Shown here: in pieces, positions 17,322 through 23,750 of the stretch
Position numbering within the stretch: position 1 is the stretch's first letter
Layout of the letters: every line of letters begins with the position of its first letter
Source of the DNA: Bacteroides neonati
GTDB lineage: Bacteria > Bacteroidota > Bacteroidia > Bacteroidales > Bacteroidaceae
Length of the DNA stretch: 64,000 nucleotides
Reading direction: 5' to 3'
NCBI RefSeq assembly: GCF_000499785.1
Contig: NZ_HG726023.1
Location: 188,534 to 252,533, forward strand
Made by a program: the position numbers and the translations under genes
The notes under the pieces: generated by a model
Seen by the model: only the letters and a program-made list of their open reading frames with translations
Told to the model about the DNA's origin: nothing
Database searches by the model: none

Positions 17322-18362
17322 TTACGGTATGCTAATCTCTCCGGCTATCGACCGGCTCATGCGTTCGCGTACCTCTTCGGGTGCATAGCCATGCCCCAGG
17401 AGGAACATCAACTTGGTGACGGCCGATTCGGTAGTACTGTCGTATCCGCTCACCACGCCTGCCTGTAGCAACTGATAGCCAGTTTCGTATCGCTCCATCT
17501 CGACCATTCCCGCTTTGCATTGGGTGATGTTGACGATGACGATGCCCCGTTCGCTGGCTTCGCGAAGCAGTCGGGCGAACCAAACCTTGCGCGGTGCATT
17601 GCCCGAACCATAGGTTTCGAGCACTACGGCCTTCAATCCGTCGATGGAGAGCGTGGCGGCTACCACATTCTCGTGAATGCCGGGAAAGAGTTTGAGCACG
17701 GCAATGTTGGTATCTAATAGGTAATGAGGGGTAAGTACCTGACTGTCGTTGGCGGCATGGGTGACGGCGGGGTTGTATTTGATATGAATACCCGCCTCGG
17801 CCAGCAGCGGATAGTTGAACGAGCGAAAGGCGTTGAAGTTCTCGGCATTCATCTTCGTGGTGCGGTTGCCCCGCATGAGGTGATTCTCGAAGAAGATGCA
17901 CACCTCGGGCACGAGCGGATGTCCGCCCGTATCGACTGCAGCGGCAATCTCGATGCTGGTCATCAGGTTTTCCTTGCCGTCGGTACGGAGCACGCCGATG
18001 GGAAGCTGCGACCCGGTAAGAATGACCGGCTTGTTCAGCCCCTCGAGCATGAAGCTCAATGCCGAGGCTGTATAAGCCATGGTATCGGTGCCATGCAATA
18101 TGACGAAGCCGGTGTAGCGCTCGTAGTTGTCGAAGATGATGCGTACCAACTTGCGCCATGCTTCGGGCTCCATGTCCGAAGAGTCCATTGGCGGGTCGAA
18201 CTGGAGAGAGTCGATGGTAAAGGTGAACTTCTGAAGTTCGGGTATATGTTTTTGCAACTGCTCGAAGTTGAAGCTCTCGAGCGCACCGGTTTCGGCATTT
18301 TCAATCATTCCAATGGTTCCACCGGTGTATATTAACAATACGGAAGCATTTAAGGCAGTCAT
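17322..18362 (-). CDS. ansA: type I L-asparaginase
   Basis: Cytoplasmic L-asparaginase I-like amidohydrolase. The first catalytic threonine lies in YTGGTIGM near the N terminus and the second in HGTDTMAYTASAL at about residue 95. It has 346 residues from the chosen ATG at 18362 (MTALNASVLLIYTGGT). No signal peptide is apparent, which fits the type I enzyme. An upstream in-frame start at 18431 is rejected because it would run through the promoter. A TATCTTTG box lies 28 nt upstream on the minus strand. It supplies aspartate, the substrate of the divergent thrA operon. Confidence 0.92.
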   Translation of the reverse strand: MTALNASVLLIYTGGTIGMIENAETGALESFNFEQLQKHIPELQKFTFTIDSLQFDPPMDSSDMEPEAWRKLVRIIFDNYERYTGFVILHGTDTMAYTASALSFMLEGLNKPVILTGSQLPIGVLRTDGKENLMTSIEIAAAVDTGGHPLVPEVCIFFENHLMRGNRTTKMNAENFNAFRSFNYPLLAEAGIHIKYNPAVTHAANDSQVLTPHYLLDTNIAVLKLFPGIHENVVAATLSIDGLKAVVLETYGSGNAPRKVWFARLLREASERGIVIVNITQCKAGMVEMERYETGYQLLQAGVVSGYDSTTESAVTKLMFLLGHGYAPEEVRERMSRSIAGEISIP

Positions 18363-18397: not shown

Positions 18398-18526
18398 GAT
18401 ATATATCTGATAGTTCATAACAAAATGTCAAAAAAGTGTGTGCCCGTCTCGGTGAATGTTTGCGCGGTGATAATCTTTTTATCAGAAATTAATCGTAAAA
18501 AGTGATAGTTTGAATGATTTTATTGT

Positions 18527-18534
18527 TACTTTTG
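18527..18534 (+). promoter_or_regulatory. -7 box of the threonine operon
   Basis: TACTTTTG matches TAnnTTTG. It would start transcription near 18541, about 30 nt before the leader peptide and 225 nt before thrA, leaving a long regulatory 5' UTR. The TTTG at 18509-18512 is closer than the usual 19 nt. Confidence 0.6.
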
Positions 18535-18570
18535 CGACATCTTATCAAAACACCGATAGAAACCAGGACT

Positions 18571-18636
18571 ATGATGCAGTACTATCCACATACAGTCACA
18601 TCCATGTGCTCAATGACCATGACCCTTTGGGGTTGA
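18571..18636 (+). CDS. Thr/Met-rich leader peptide upstream of thrA
   Basis: A 21-codon open frame starting ATG ATG and ending TGA. It holds four Thr (ACA, ACA, ACC, ACC) and five Met codons, ending ...S-M-T-M-T-L-W-G. It lies between a promoter-like box and thrA, whose pathway makes precisely threonine and (through homoserine) methionine. ATCCAT (about 18599-18604) can pair with ATGGAT just after the stop, closing a loop around the Thr/Met codons. This is what a translation-monitoring attenuator looks like. That it is translated is inferred. Confidence 0.6.
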   Translation: MMQYYPHTVTSMCSMTMTLWG

Positions 18637-18767
18637 TGGATAGTATTTGTGTTTCTACGTGATTCACGCTTACGGAAGGTAAGCAATAAACATTTTCAAG
18701 TCATCTTATTTAAAAACATAGAACCATTGCCCGGCAAAGGGGAAGTGGTATTAAATTTATATCTGCA
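18637..18767 (+). promoter_or_regulatory. putative attenuator region between leader peptide and thrA
   Basis: It contains a GCTTAC/GTAAGC hairpin (18668-18684) and a CAAAGGG (18735-18741) complementary to CCCTTTG inside the leader peptide (18623-18629), so alternative pairings depending on leader translation are possible. A strong T-tract terminator is not obvious, so control could be translational (masking of the thrA ribosome entry region) rather than transcriptional. Confidence 0.4.
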
Positions 18768-21203
18768 ATGAAAGTAATGAAATTCGGCGGAACATCCGTA
18801 GGTTCCGTGAACAGCATTTTGAGCGTAAAGAAAATCGTTGAGTCGGCACAAGAACCGGTCATCGTCATTGTTTCTGCCTTGGGTGGCATCACCGATAAAC
18901 TAATCAATACCTCGAAGATGGCGGCAGCCGGAGACGCGGCTTACGAAGCTGAGTTCCGCGAGATCGTATACCGTCACGTAGAGATGGTCAAGGAGGTGAT
19001 TCCGGCAGGAGAGGAGCAAACCGCACTGCAACGTCAGGTGGGCGAACTGCTCAACGAGCTGAAAGACATCTTTCAGGGTATCTACCTGATTAAAGACCTT
19101 TCGGCCAAGACATCCGATACGATTGTGAGCTATGGCGAGCGGTTATCGTCGATCATTGTGGCGTGTCTTATCAAGGATGCCCGGTGGTTCGATTCGCGCA
19201 GCTTCATCAAAACAGAGTCGAAGCATACCAAGCATACGCTCGACAAGGAGCTGACCAACCAATTGATAAAGAAAACCTTCCGTGATATTCCGCAGGTGTC
19301 GCTCGTGCCGGGCTTCATCTCGTCGGACAAGCTGACGGGCGACGTCACAAACCTCGGACGTGGCGGTTCGGACTATACCGCAGCCATTATTGCTGCTGCA
19401 CTGGATGCCGACAGCCTTGAGATTTGGACCGATGTAGACGGCTTCATGACCGCCGATCCGCGCGTTATCTCTACCGCCTATACCATCAGCGAACTGAGCT
19501 ACGTTGAGGCGATGGAGCTGTGTAACTTCGGTGCCAAGGTGGTGTATCCGCCTACCATCTATCCGGTGTGCCATAAGAACATCCCGATCCTTATCAAGAA
19601 TACCTTCAACCCAGAAGGAGCCGGAACGGTGATTAAGAAAACTGTCGATAGCTCTCGTTGCAAGGCGATCAAGGGTATTTCGTCGATCAACGACACGAGC
19701 CTGATTACCGTGCAGGGACTCGGTATGGTGGGCGTGATCGGGGTTAACTACCGCATCTTTAAGGCATTGGCCAAGAATGGCATCAGTGTGTTCTTGGTGT
19801 CGCAGGCCTCGTCGGAAAACAGTACCTCGATCGGTGTGCGCAATGCCGATGCCGATCTGGCGTGCGAGATGCTCAACGAGGAGTTCGAGAAAGAGATCGA
19901 GATGGGAGAGATATCGCCCATACTCGCCGAGAAGAATCTGGCTACGGTAGCCATCGTAGGCGAGAATATGAAGCATACGCCCGGCATTGCCGGCAAGCTG
20001 TTCGGAACGCTGGGGCGCAACGGTATCAACGTCATCGCCTGTGCGCAGGGGGCTTCGGAGACGAACATCTCGTTCGTGGTCGATAGCAAGTCGTTGCGCA
20101 AGTCGCTCAACGTTATTCACGATTCGTTCTTCCTCTCCGAGTATCAGGTACTGAACCTCTTCATCTGCGGAGTGGGTACGGTAGGGGGCAGCCTGATCGA
20201 ACAGATTCGCCAGCAACAACAGAAACTCAAGCAGGAGAACGGGCTGAAGCTGCACGTGGTCGGTATCGCCGATGCCGAGCGCGCCATGTTCAGCCGTGCC
20301 GGATTCGATCTGGCCAACTACCGCGAAGAGCTTAAAGAGAAGGGCGAACCGAGCACCATCGAAACCCTGCGCGACGAGATTATCGGCATGAACATCTTCA
20401 ATTCCGTATTCGTAGACTGTACCGCCAGTGCAGGCGTGGCATCGCTCTATAAGGAGCTGCTCGACCACAACGTGTCGGTCGTAGCTGCCAATAAGATTGC
20501 CGCCTCGTCGGCCTATGACAACTACCGCGAACTCAAACAGATTGCCCGCCTGCGCGGTGTCAAGTTCCTGTTCGAGACCAATGTAGGAGCGGGATTGCCC
20601 ATCATCAACACCATCAACGACCTGATTCATAGCGGCGACAAGATCTTGAAGATCGAAGCCGTGCTGTCGGGCACACTCAACTACATCTTCAATAAGATCA
20701 GTGCCGACATCCCCTTCAGCCGCACCATCAAGATGGCGCAGGAAGAGCGTTACTCGGAGCCCGATCCACGTATCGACCTAAGCGGTAAGGACGTGATCCG
20801 CAAGCTCGTGATCTTGGCGCGTGAGGCCGGATACCGCCTCGAACAGGAGGATGTGGAGAAGAATCTCTTCGTGCCTGCCGACTTCTTCGAGGGTACACTC
20901 GATGCCTTCTGGCAGCGTGTGCCCAGCCTCGATGCCGACTTCGAAGCCCGCCGCCAAGTGCTCGAAAGCGAACACAAACACTGGCGGTTCGTGGCGAAGC
21001 TGGAGAATGGAAAAGCCTCGGTCGGCTTGCAGGAGGTAGACCGCAACCATCCGTTCTACGGACTGGAGGGAAGCAACAACATCATTCTGCTGACCACCGA
21101 ACGCTATAAAGAGTACCCGATGATGATTCAGGGATACGGTGCCGGAGCCGGAGTGACGGCCGCGGGCGTATTTGCCGACATCATGAGTATTGCCAATGTG
21201 TAA
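18768..21203 (+). CDS. thrA: bifunctional aspartokinase / homoserine dehydrogenase
   Basis: Catalyses the first and third steps of the aspartate pathway to threonine and methionine. The 811-residue fusion starts with the aspartokinase motif M-K-V-M-K-F-G-G-T-S-V-G-S. It has two ACT regulatory segments (about 300-455, e.g. VQGLGMVGVIGVNYRIF and VAIVGENMKHTPGIAGKLF). The C-terminal homoserine dehydrogenase shows NAD-binding G-V-G-T-V-G-G-S (about 465) and the catalytic region N-K-I-A-A-S ... GAGLPIINTINDLIHSGD. It is first gene of thrA-apgM-thrC with gaps of 15 bp each. Feedback control through ACT domains is expected for the family. Confidence 0.97.
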   Translation: MKVMKFGGTSVGSVNSILSVKKIVESAQEPVIVIVSALGGITDKLINTSKMAAAGDAAYEAEFREIVYRHVEMVKEVIPAGEEQTALQRQVGELLNELKDIFQGIYLIKDLSAKTSDTIVSYGERLSSIIVACLIKDARWFDSRSFIKTESKHTKHTLDKELTNQLIKKTFRDIPQVSLVPGFISSDKLTGDVTNLGRGGSDYTAAIIAAALDADSLEIWTDVDGFMTADPRVISTAYTISELSYVEAMELCNFGAKVVYPPTIYPVCHKNIPILIKNTFNPEGAGTVIKKTVDSSRCKAIKGISSINDTSLITVQGLGMVGVIGVNYRIFKALAKNGISVFLVSQASSENSTSIGVRNADADLACEMLNEEFEKEIEMGEISPILAEKNLATVAIVGENMKHTPGIAGKLFGTLGRNGINVIACAQGASETNISFVVDSKSLRKSLNVIHDSFFLSEYQVLNLFICGVGTVGGSLIEQIRQQQQKLKQENGLKLHVVGIADAERAMFSRAGFDLANYREELKEKGEPSTIETLRDEIIGMNIFNSVFVDCTASAGVASLYKELLDHNVSVVAANKIAASSAYDNYRELKQIARLRGVKFLFETNVGAGLPIINTINDLIHSGDKILKIEAVLSGTLNYIFNKISADIPFSRTIKMAQEERYSEPDPRIDLSGKDVIRKLVILAREAGYRLEQEDVEKNLFVPADFFEGTLDAFWQRVPSLDADFEARRQVLESEHKHWRFVAKLENGKASVGLQEVDRNHPFYGLEGSNNIILLTTERYKEYPMMIQGYGAGAGVTAAGVFADIMSIANV

Positions 21204-21218
21204 CTAAATCGAACGTGA

Positions 21219-22433
21219 ATGAAACATATCATTATTCTCGGTGACGGAATGGCCGACTGGCCTGTTCCGTCGCTGGGCAACCAAACCCTGTTGCAACACG
21301 CCCACACGCCGAACATGGATCGGCTGGCGCGGCTGGGACGCAACGGGATGCTCACCACCGTAGCCCCCGGCTTTCACCCCGGTAGCGAGGTAGCCAATCT
21401 GTCGGTGCTGGGCTACGACCTGCCTACGGTGTACGAAGGACGCGGCCCGCTCGAAGCCGCCAGCATCGGTGTGGAGCTGCAACCGGGCGAGATGGCCATG
21501 CGCTGCAACCTCGTCTGCATCGAAGGCGAGCTACTCAAGAACCACTCTGCCGGACACATCACCACCGCAGAGGCAGACATCCTCATCCGATACTTGCAAG
21601 AAGAGTTGGGCGACGACCGCGTGCGCTTCCACACCGGTGTGCAGTACCGCCACCTGCTGGTCGTTAAAGGCGGCAACAAACAGCTCGACTGCACCCCGCC
21701 CCACGATGTGCCGTTGAAACCCTTCGCCCCGCTGATGGTTAAACCCCTTGCGAGCGAGGCCGAAGAGACTGCCGCGTGCATCAACGACCTCATCCTGCGC
21801 TCGCAAGCGCTGCTCGCCAACCACCCCGTCAACCTTGCGCGTGTGGCGGCAGGCAAAGACCCTGCCAACAGCATCTGGCCGTGGAGTCCCGGCTACCGTC
21901 CGCAGATGGTGCGCCTGAGCGAAACCTTTCCGCAGATCAAGCGCGGTGCGGTGATCTCGGCTGTCGATCTCATCAACGGAATCGGCGTGTATGCCGGTCT
22001 GCGACGCATCGACGTAGAGGGTGCTACGGGATTGTATGACACCAACTACGAGAACAAGCTCGCCGCCGCCCTCGATGCCCTGCGCACCGACGACTTTGTG
22101 TACCTGCACATCGAGGCTAGCGACGAGGCGGGACATGAAGGCGACATCGACCTGAAGCTGCGCACCATCGAGAACCTCGACCGACGCATCGTAGGGCCGC
22201 TGCTCGATGCCCTCACCCAATGGAGCGAACCTGTGGCCGTGGCCCTGCTGCCCGACCATCCTACGCCCTGCGCCCTGCGCACGCATACGTCCGACCCTGT
22301 GCCCTTCGCCCTCTGGCATCCCGGCATCGAGCCCGACGAGGTGCAGACCTACGACGAACTTGCCGCGCGCAACGGAGCGTGCGGATGGCTGAAAGAGGCC
22401 GAATTTATCAACCTATTCATCAACAACGAATAA
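21219..22433 (+). CDS. ApgM-type cofactor-independent phosphoglycerate mutase, proposed homoserine kinase
   Basis: A 404-residue alkaline-phosphatase-superfamily protein with the archaeal-type iPGM start I-I-L-G-D-G-M-A-D-W (metal-binding Asp) and G-F-H-P-G-S-E-V-A-N-L-S-V-L-G-Y containing the nucleophile Ser region. Late metal ligands are in EASDEAGHEGD and L-L-P-D-H-P-T-P. It sits between thrA and thrC exactly where homoserine kinase (thrB) is expected, and no GHMP-type ThrB is present in this operon. This family-in-context is known as a proposed homoserine kinase. The activity is inferred from position. Confidence 0.85.
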   Translation: MKHIIILGDGMADWPVPSLGNQTLLQHAHTPNMDRLARLGRNGMLTTVAPGFHPGSEVANLSVLGYDLPTVYEGRGPLEAASIGVELQPGEMAMRCNLVCIEGELLKNHSAGHITTAEADILIRYLQEELGDDRVRFHTGVQYRHLLVVKGGNKQLDCTPPHDVPLKPFAPLMVKPLASEAEETAACINDLILRSQALLANHPVNLARVAAGKDPANSIWPWSPGYRPQMVRLSETFPQIKRGAVISAVDLINGIGVYAGLRRIDVEGATGLYDTNYENKLAAALDALRTDDFVYLHIEASDEAGHEGDIDLKLRTIENLDRRIVGPLLDALTQWSEPVAVALLPDHPTPCALRTHTSDPVPFALWHPGIEPDEVQTYDELAARNGACGWLKEAEFINLFINNE

Positions 22434-22448
22434 CAACCTCTACTCCTC

Positions 22449-23750
22449 ATGAACTACTACAGCACCAACCACCAAGCCCCCATCGCCTCGCTCAGAGAAG
22501 CAGTGGTCAAGGGATTGGCTTCCGATAAGGGGCTATTCATGCCCACAACGATCAAACCCCTGCCACAGGAGTTTTTCGACACGATCGACACCCTCTCGTT
22601 TCAAGAGATAGCCTGCCGCGTGGCGGATGCCTTCTTTGGCGACGACCTGCCCGAAGAGACCCTGCGCGAGATCGTCTGCGATACCCTTTCGTTCGACGTG
22701 CCCCTCGTACCCGTCACCCACCGCATCTACGCCCTCGAACTCTTTCACGGGCCTACGCTGGCGTTCAAAGACGTCGGGGCGCGCTTCATGGCGCGGTTGC
22801 TGGGCTACTATATTAAGAAGGAGGGACAGACGAAGGTCAACGTCCTCGCCGCCACCTCGGGCGATACGGGCAGTGCCGTTGCCAACGGGTTTCTGGGCGT
22901 AGAGGGCATCCACGTCTACGTGCTTTACCCCAAGGGGAAGGTGAGCGAGATACAGGAGAAGCAGTTCGCCACGCTGGGGCAGAACATTACGGCGTTGGAG
23001 GTCGACGGCACGTTCGACGACTGTCAGGCACTCGTCAAGTCCGCCTTCATGGATGCCGAGCTCAACGAACACCTGCTGCTCACCAGTGCCAACTCCATCA
23101 ACGTGGCGCGCTTCCTGCCGCAGGCCTTCTATTACTTCTACGCCTACGCGCAGCTCAAACGGTTGGGAAAGGCGGAGAACGTCGTATTCAGCGTGCCCAG
23201 CGGCAACTTCGGCAACCTCACCGCCGGGCTCTTTGCCCGCCGCATGGGGCTTCCGGTCAAACGGTTCATCGCTGCCAACAACCGCAACGACATCTTCTAC
23301 CAATACCTGCATACGGGCGAGTACCGCCCCCGTGCCTCGGTGACGACCGTTGCCAATGCCATGGACGTAGGCGACCCGAGCAATTTTGCCCGCGTGCTGG
23401 CACTCTACGAGGGTTCGCACGAAGCCATCCGAGCCGACGTCAGCGGCGAAACCTATACCGACGAGCAGATCTGCCACACGGTGAAAGAGACGTGGGAGCT
23501 CTTCGGCTACCTGCTCGACCCCCACGGAGCGTGCGCCTATCGGGCGCTGCAACACGATTTGCGGTCGGGCGAGACGGGCGTACTGCTCGAAACGGCACAC
23601 CCCGCCAAGTTCCTCGAAACGGTCGAGGGCATCATCGGGGAGCCCGTTGCCGTGCCCGAAAAGCTGCAAGCCTTCCTTGGGCGCGAGAAGCAGAGCGTGC
23701 CGCTCTCGAAGGCGTTTGCCGACTTCAAACAGTATTTGCTGGCGCGTTGA
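22449..23750 (+). CDS. thrC: threonine synthase
   Basis: PLP enzyme converting O-phosphohomoserine to threonine. The start MNYYSTNHQAP is family-typical. The PLP lysine is K107 in HGPTLAFKDVGARFM, the phosphate-binding loop is ATSGDTGSAV, and VPSGNFGN is present. It has 433 residues and is the last gene of the threonine operon, with tandem hairpins and a strong terminator directly downstream. Confidence 0.96.
   Translation: MNYYSTNHQAPIASLREAVVKGLASDKGLFMPTTIKPLPQEFFDTIDTLSFQEIACRVADAFFGDDLPEETLREIVCDTLSFDVPLVPVTHRIYALELFHGPTLAFKDVGARFMARLLGYYIKKEGQTKVNVLAATSGDTGSAVANGFLGVEGIHVYVLYPKGKVSEIQEKQFATLGQNITALEVDGTFDDCQALVKSAFMDAELNEHLLLTSANSINVARFLPQAFYYFYAYAQLKRLGKAENVVFSVPSGNFGNLTAGLFARRMGLPVKRFIAANNRNDIFYQYLHTGEYRPRASVTTVANAMDVGDPSNFARVLALYEGSHEAIRADVSGETYTDEQICHTVKETWELFGYLLDPHGACAYRALQHDLRSGETGVLLETAHPAKFLETVEGIIGEPVAVPEKLQAFLGREKQSVPLSKAFADFKQYLLAR

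Follow-up and report, generated by a model that had tools for sequence, protein, structure and literature searches.

Leaders of amino-acid operons and the region upstream of thrA

The closest described counterpart of the locus analysed here is the thr attenuator of Escherichia coli (thrL; Rfam family Thr_leader), in which a short Thr-rich open reading frame with Thr and Ile control codons precedes thrA and hairpins lie over and behind it. A comparative study by Vitreschak et al. in 2004 reportedly predicted amino-acid attenuators, Thr included, with Bacteroidetes/Chlorobi among the groups covered, and in Bacteroidetes the Bacteroid-trp RNA sits before trp genes. This RNA (RF01692) was presented by Weinberg et al. 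in 2010 as a candidate cis-regulatory RNA of Bacteroidetes (PMC2864571). Putative leader-peptide sORFs have been reported in 5'UTRs of B. thetaiotaomicron (PMC7366714), and attenuation in the leaders of amino-acid operons for F. psychrophilum (PMC9723704); the term thrA does not occur in the main text of either paper. The available parts of PMC4833913 and PMC1262725 name no thrA leader, and none of the papers among the matches listed deals with a Bacteroides thrA leader, with most subscription papers outside reach.

We analysed a 64,000-nt stretch of Bacteroides neonati contig NZ_HG726023.1 (the window), in which region 18540-18690, comprising a leader ORF and several RNA elements, precedes a thrA-apgM-thrC operon. 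Like thrL, it holds a short Thr-rich ORF before thrA with hairpins over and behind. Unlike thrL, its putative control codons are for Thr and Met, a long-range helix (P2) joins early codons of the frame to bases 3' of its stop codon, no GC-rich terminator was recognised, and the same RNA can precede apgM-thrC. No Rfam family, Bacteroid-trp RNA included, matched over 18440-18800 at E<=10, and the families found at gathering score in the window were two tRNAs only. We give a probability of roughly 0.78 to the reading that region 18540-18690 is a ribosome-controlled leader of thrA-apgM-thrC in which stalling at Thr and Met codons sets read-through, judging from comparative sequence evidence on the following features.

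18527-18534, plus strand: box TACTTTTG, of the form TAnnTTTG (from the sequence)
18554-18563, plus strand: 5' box of P1, CGATAGAAAC, complementary with one bulge to GTTTCTACG (18651-18659)
18571-18636, plus strand: leader ORF MMQYYPHTVTSMCSMTMTLWG with putative Thr/Met control codons (from the sequence)
18580-18588, plus strand: 5' arm of P2, TACTATCCA, leader codons 4-6 (covariation with 18637-18645)
18587-18608, plus strand: P2a within the ORF, CACAT (18587-18591) with ATGTG (18604-18608) (two-sided changes)
18622-18633, plus strand: hairpin H, ACCC-TTTG-GGGT, on the last four codons (alignments A1 and A2)
18637-18645, plus strand: 3' arm of P2, TGGATAGTA, directly 3' of the stop codon (covariation)
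18649-18667, plus strand: hairpin P3, GTGTTTC-TACGT-GATTCAC (stem pairing, loop conservation)
18668-18684, plus strand: hairpin P4, GCTTAC-GGAAG-GTAAGC (covariation)
18768-21203, plus strand: thrA, bifunctional aspartokinase/homoserine dehydrogenase (NF006959, 1060 bits; PF00742/PF00696)
21219-22433, plus strand: apgM/thrB2, proposed homoserine kinase (TIGR02535, 563 bits)
22449-23750, plus strand: thrC, threonine synthase (TIGR00260, 298 bits)

The threonine operon and its leader frame

Homoserine dehydrogenase (PF00742) has a single match in the genome, within thrA, so that thrA should serve both threonine and methionine synthesis. The role of apgM was rated uncertain by GapMind (PMC7311316), and a later survey based it on co-occurrence and co-localization (PMC9026213), as far as the accessible portions of the two papers go. 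An asparaginase gene (PF00710) lies divergently from the thr operon at 17325-18338 on the minus strand.

The leader ORF starts with the ATG at 18571, ends with a TGA stop (18634-18636) after 21 codons and leaves 131 nt to the thrA start at 18768; its four Thr and five Met codons, two of the latter start-like, as well as a promoter box upstream had been pointed out in the preliminary description and are indeed present in the sequence. This box, TACTTTTG, stands 36 nt before the leader ATG and matches TAnnTTTG, which we take to be the Bacteroides -7 promoter box and which is found 50-150 nt 5' of H in 131 of 132 loci. When frames 12-40 codons long were surveyed over both window strands (752 ATG starts), at least four Thr and at least three Met in the last 21 residues were found for the leader frame alone (three nested starts), making its composition unique within the window. 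By eye, boxes TTTTTATC, GTGATAG and TTATCA recur around the thrA promoter in many species of the genus (18440-18550 and relatives) and possibly constitute a transcription factor site.

Coding signal and distribution

Among relatives, leader length changes are frequent but come mostly in threes and keep the frame, and the TACTATC motif of the P2 arm has the same phase as H in 119 of 138 loci. We rely on this motif-based count for the phase of P2; a complement-based search gave 60/40/32 of 132 loci and no clear answer, and we think that it caught chance helices. Single-step codon differences among 46 same-length distinct leaders are synonymous in 35% of cases in the true frame versus 25% and 23% in the others and an expected 21-22%, which is a mild excess. 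Outside H, whose Thr is fixed by the search pattern, one position of these leaders is Thr in 46/46 and two others in 41 and 43, while one is Met in 42/46 and another Met in 41 and Thr in 5; a codon amid these control positions encodes Cys, Arg, Trp or Gly. Taken as a whole, the sequence comparisons indicate that the leader frame is real, conserved and part of a conserved folded RNA.

Protein searches gathered 240 loci, 238 of them with a thrA start and 208 distinct in their upstream region. An ORF ending in T[LPR][RW]G is present in 140 of these 208 regions, the remaining 68 including many from Prevotella-like and more distant genomes and also a few off-pattern leaders (e.g., L154). The P3 loop pattern follows 3' of the ORF in 132 of the 140, the other eight being L079 and seven loci from other families. 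We trained a covariance model (R1) on 102 of the ORF-chosen loci with a P3 loop; it matched upstream of thrA in 129 of 139 genomes of the genus (54/60 and 75/79), many of whose loci are R1 training loci; these 139 are the subset of 158 genomes in the genus search for which the thrA upstream region was examined, and one miss, L175, has an upstream region of just 73 nt. Across the family, R1 matched in 95 of 399 genomes and 11 of 30 genera, and a second model (R2) in 96 genomes and 12 genera with 303 genomes lacking a match, while an order sample of 393 genomes under strict filters yielded 4 matches, all within the same family. Neither a second copy of the whole RNA below E 6 nor a second P3-pattern site was found in the window's genome, which leaves one such site in total. 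The RNA precedes apgM instead of thrA in genera g36, g44 and g50 and in one g37 genome (G508), and in all nine apgM-leader loci inspected over a longer stretch, thrC comes next after apgM and no thrA lies within the sequence retrieved.

Control codons and the gene behind the leader

We defined the control segment as up to 12 codons up to H with the first three residues excluded. Met occurs in 105 of 110 distinct thrA segments versus 0 of 12 distinct apgM segments (Fisher 4.8e-13, a p-value that overstates the evidence because the rows are related and hold 1-3 independent pairs) and, with a longer segment, in 125 of 129 versus 0 of 13. On the apgM tree (32 labelled rows; the apgM leaders L275, L349 and L351 unlabelled), the leader types need three changes, and a phylogenetically independent test of the Met contrast on so few pairs is too small for a sign test and has no power. 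With the forced Thr of H excluded, Thr makes up 32% of thrA and 46% of apgM segments and Met 19% and 0%, respectively; the operon's own proteins contain 5.3% Thr and 1.8% Met. In genome G508, where the RNA stands before thrA as well as before apgM, the apgM leader has no Met and the thrA-side leader, which we excluded from the Met counts, is degenerate (MCRAAISMPGRARN, or two Thr and two Met from an upstream TTG), so that the within-genome contrast is weak.

The leaders are hence rich in codons for the end products of the operon, as is typical of trp/thr-type attenuators, and these codons are kept in relatives and track the pathway, with few independent events. The preliminary description had proposed a leader peptide with Thr and Met control codons and had raised their loss in relatives as an argument against it. 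This peptide holds up as conserved and mostly frame-keeping, with Met codons that track the gene behind; of 110 distinct thrA leaders, 108 have two or more Thr codons 5' of H, and 5 have no Met in the control segment. Since Met codons stand only where the gene behind also feeds methionine synthesis, this leader very probably lets ribosomes sense both Thr and Met.

A conserved fold over and behind the leader frame

Two alignments were used, A1 without fitting (loci picked by an ORF pattern overlapping H) and A2 with 76 selected loci, ten other genera included, fitted to R1. P2 covaries clearly on A2 (0.365 vs 0.171 shuffled and <=0.122 slid) with two-sided changes at 6/6 pairs, and the weaker P2a has two-sided changes at 5/5 pairs with 70.6% of cells paired, both values coming from a fit that favours P2, P2a, H and P3. 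P4, which lies outside the model fitted, covaries clearly as well (0.269 vs 0.166 shuffled, <=0.128 slid). P3 does so moderately (0.132 vs 0.105 shuffled), and a register slid by +2 scored higher (0.166).

On the unfitted A1, the whole structure reached 0.109 versus 0.096 shuffled and <=0.059 slid. Cells with two-sided change numbered 50 versus 30.5 shuffled (0/500 as high), pairs with two-sided change 11 versus 9.0 (76/500 as high) and further pair types 28 versus 26.3 (125/500 as high), the latter two measures giving no clear excess over the shuffles. RNAalifold on this plain MAFFT alignment proposed 7 pairs only with a covariation term of -0.07, a shortfall that we put down to P2 and ORF indels being out of register.

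The fold is three-way-junction-like. The inner three C-G pairs of H are invariant in both alignments, whereas the base that makes the loop codon Arg or Trp varies, so H seems to be preserved for the sake of the RNA and not of the peptide. The patterns behind A1 and the 186-locus set fix a Thr-[LPR]-[RW]-Gly end or an ACC-start H as well as the P3 loop, and that of the 186-locus set also the closing pair of P3, so that the invariance of the H Thr, the P3 closing pair and the P3 loop is partly by construction. Less biased than these pattern-chosen sets are the 132 of 140 ORF-chosen loci with a P3 loop and the loop T[AG]CG[TC] in 51 of 52 covariance-model matches from other genera.

In most loci hairpin P3 is A-U rich and contains internal mismatches. 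Five to seven of the seven stem positions pair in 184 of 186 distinct loci, and 170 of these 186 have 10-15 nt between the leader stop and P3. P4 directly follows P3 in 107 of the 186, of which 35 have at least six T in an 8-nt window and most lack a strong U-run close to the stem. Where P4 is missing (79 loci), the sequence behind P3 is mostly T-rich (at least six T in 8 nt in 70 of them), and a TTTTTCAGCAGTTTTT-like stretch recurs there, for example in L010, L013 and L019. Information per position is 1.3 bits at P3, drops to 0.47 just behind and has reached 0.07 by 55 nt; thrA starts between 38 and 223 nt after P3.

The P1 box lies 8-17 nt 5' of the leader ATG and is complementary to the 5' arm and loop of P3; its pairing with GTTTCTACG makes P1 and P3 mutually exclusive. 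P1 has 88.1% of cells paired versus 32-69% slid, with two-sided change in 2 cells only, and was seen in the genus only, none having been noticed by eye in the other genera viewed.

Three helices had been listed in the preliminary description, and their letters are all present in the window, but conservation with covariation was found only for GCTTAC/GTAAGC, the P4 stem. ATCCAT and ATGGAT occur together in 15 of 132 loci, where they compete with the stronger covarying TACTATCCA/TGGATAGTA that this description lacked.

Proposed mechanism and alternatives

On our preferred reading, a ribosome would translate the short leader ORF and, when threonyl- or methionyl-tRNA is scarce, stall at Thr or Met codons, most of which lie within the P2 loop. 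The first Thr codon lies at most 12 nt from the end of the P2 5' arm in 62 of 75 leaders (the 76 rows of A2 minus one without the H Thr), and 466 Thr codons fall inside the P2 loop versus 88 between the preceding stop and the arm end. Given the size of its footprint, a stalled ribosome would cover the P2 5' arm and keep P2 open; with amino acids plentiful, the ribosome would instead reach the stop codon, usually 10-15 nt before P3. The choice of state would set the amount of transcription past P3/P4 into the operon, on when starved and off when fed. By this layout, P2 would play the part that the 1:2 helix has in classical attenuators. In the genus Bacteroides, the P1 box in the ribosome-binding region of the leader would provide a candidate anti-P3 strand and could thereby fill the place of the antiterminator.

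Codon sensing is the likely part of this scheme and a transcriptional output our better guess. No canonical intrinsic terminator was recognised, P3 not looking like a strong one, and a mutual-information covariation scan of A2 found no covarying 2:3 antiterminator helix. Since no such classical pair was found, we infer the last step, transcription read-through with intrinsic or Rho-assisted termination; stalling and the direction of control are likewise inferred. We also count against the scheme that P3, where P1 is missing, can form in every ribosome state that can be drawn.

The alternative that survives best keeps the same codon sensing and places the output in Rho-dependent termination or mRNA decay within the unconserved stretch behind P3/P4. 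We regard it as a serious, if somewhat less than even, possibility: no canonical terminator was recognised, most P4-type loci have no strong U-run and conservation is lost behind P3, all of which it would accommodate, whereas the T-rich stretch behind P3 in 70 of the 79 P4-less loci is what an intrinsic terminator would have. Rather doubtful as a whole is a more far-reaching version of the ribosome-controlled leader, namely a class of attenuators in Bacteroidaceae that does without the classical pair of terminator and antiterminator. The terminating ribosome would there sit at an almost constant 10-15 nt before a hairpin whose U[AG]CG[UC] loop hardly varies, the anti-P3 strand in the ribosome-binding region of Bacteroides would let initiation and stalling be read together, and codons would have been retuned from Thr and Met to Thr alone on the move from thrA to apgM-thrC.

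That the amino-acid sequence itself matters, as a functional or arrest peptide, rather than tRNA supply would agree with the long genus-wide consensus YYPHTVTSMCTMTLRG but is improbable, given that several positions outside the control codons are variable (C/R/W/G; in the H loop R/W) and that the peptide differs among genera while the enrichment in Thr, and in Met before thrA, stays. At least as improbable is a riboswitch or protein-bound RNA with an incidental ORF: it could account for the highly conserved H and P3 loop and the junction-like fold, yet length changes mostly in threes, a Thr/Met content that tracks the gene and the exchange of Met for Thr at a control position all speak against it.

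Very little remains of the translational mechanism that the preliminary description had suggested, in which the leader would pair with or expose the thrA start region through CCCTTTG/CAAAGGG. This helix is present in the window, but a 7-base complement of the H 5' side within 70 nt of the thrA start exists in 1 of 132 loci, that of the window itself (a 6-base complement near the start in 3 of 132), and we rejected it as private to this species. The drop of information behind P3, the variable distance of P3 to thrA, the unconserved surroundings of the start codon and the occurrence of the same RNA before apgM likewise argue against it. Least probable of all is P3 as a DNA operator for a transcription factor, for which its commonest form GTGTTTCTACGTGTTACAC (45 of 132 loci) is near-palindromic but compensatory stem changes around a 5-nt loop, the single pattern site in the genome and the narrow spacing to the leader stop are not what one would expect.

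Other leader forms in the order

Five thrA leaders from Parabacteroides and one other member of the Tannerellaceae (L099, L100, L102, L118 and L121) share the peptide YYTWALM, with codons that differ synonymously, but have few codons for Thr; this gives the impression that selection acts on the amino-acid sequence and not on Thr codons. A degenerate YYTWALM pattern turned up in 2 genomes, both of one family, among the 393 of the order sample. Upstream of thrA in L046 (G058, another family), a leader MKHQLHTIITITTTRPQTS is followed, as seen by eye, by a GC-rich stem with a T-run and has a competing helix GAGTTGAG/CTCAACT, resembling a textbook attenuator, and the classical form may thus exist beside the Bacteroidaceae form within the order. 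Leaders of L037, L043 and L047 (other families) contain Thr and end in TPWG with an ACCCC..GGGGG hairpin, one with Ile (IITIT), as in the E. coli leader, and none with Met in the Thr run.

Implications

For common gut bacteria, i.e., Bacteroides, Phocaeicola and relatives, the leader would provide a concrete, testable amino-acid sensor for the shared threonine and methionine pathway, and its gene-dependent Met codons would amount to a natural experiment on codon sensing. The Thr-only leader before apgM-thrC would further place apgM (TIGR02535, BT2402) in the threonine branch on regulatory grounds, independently of its adjacency to thrA.
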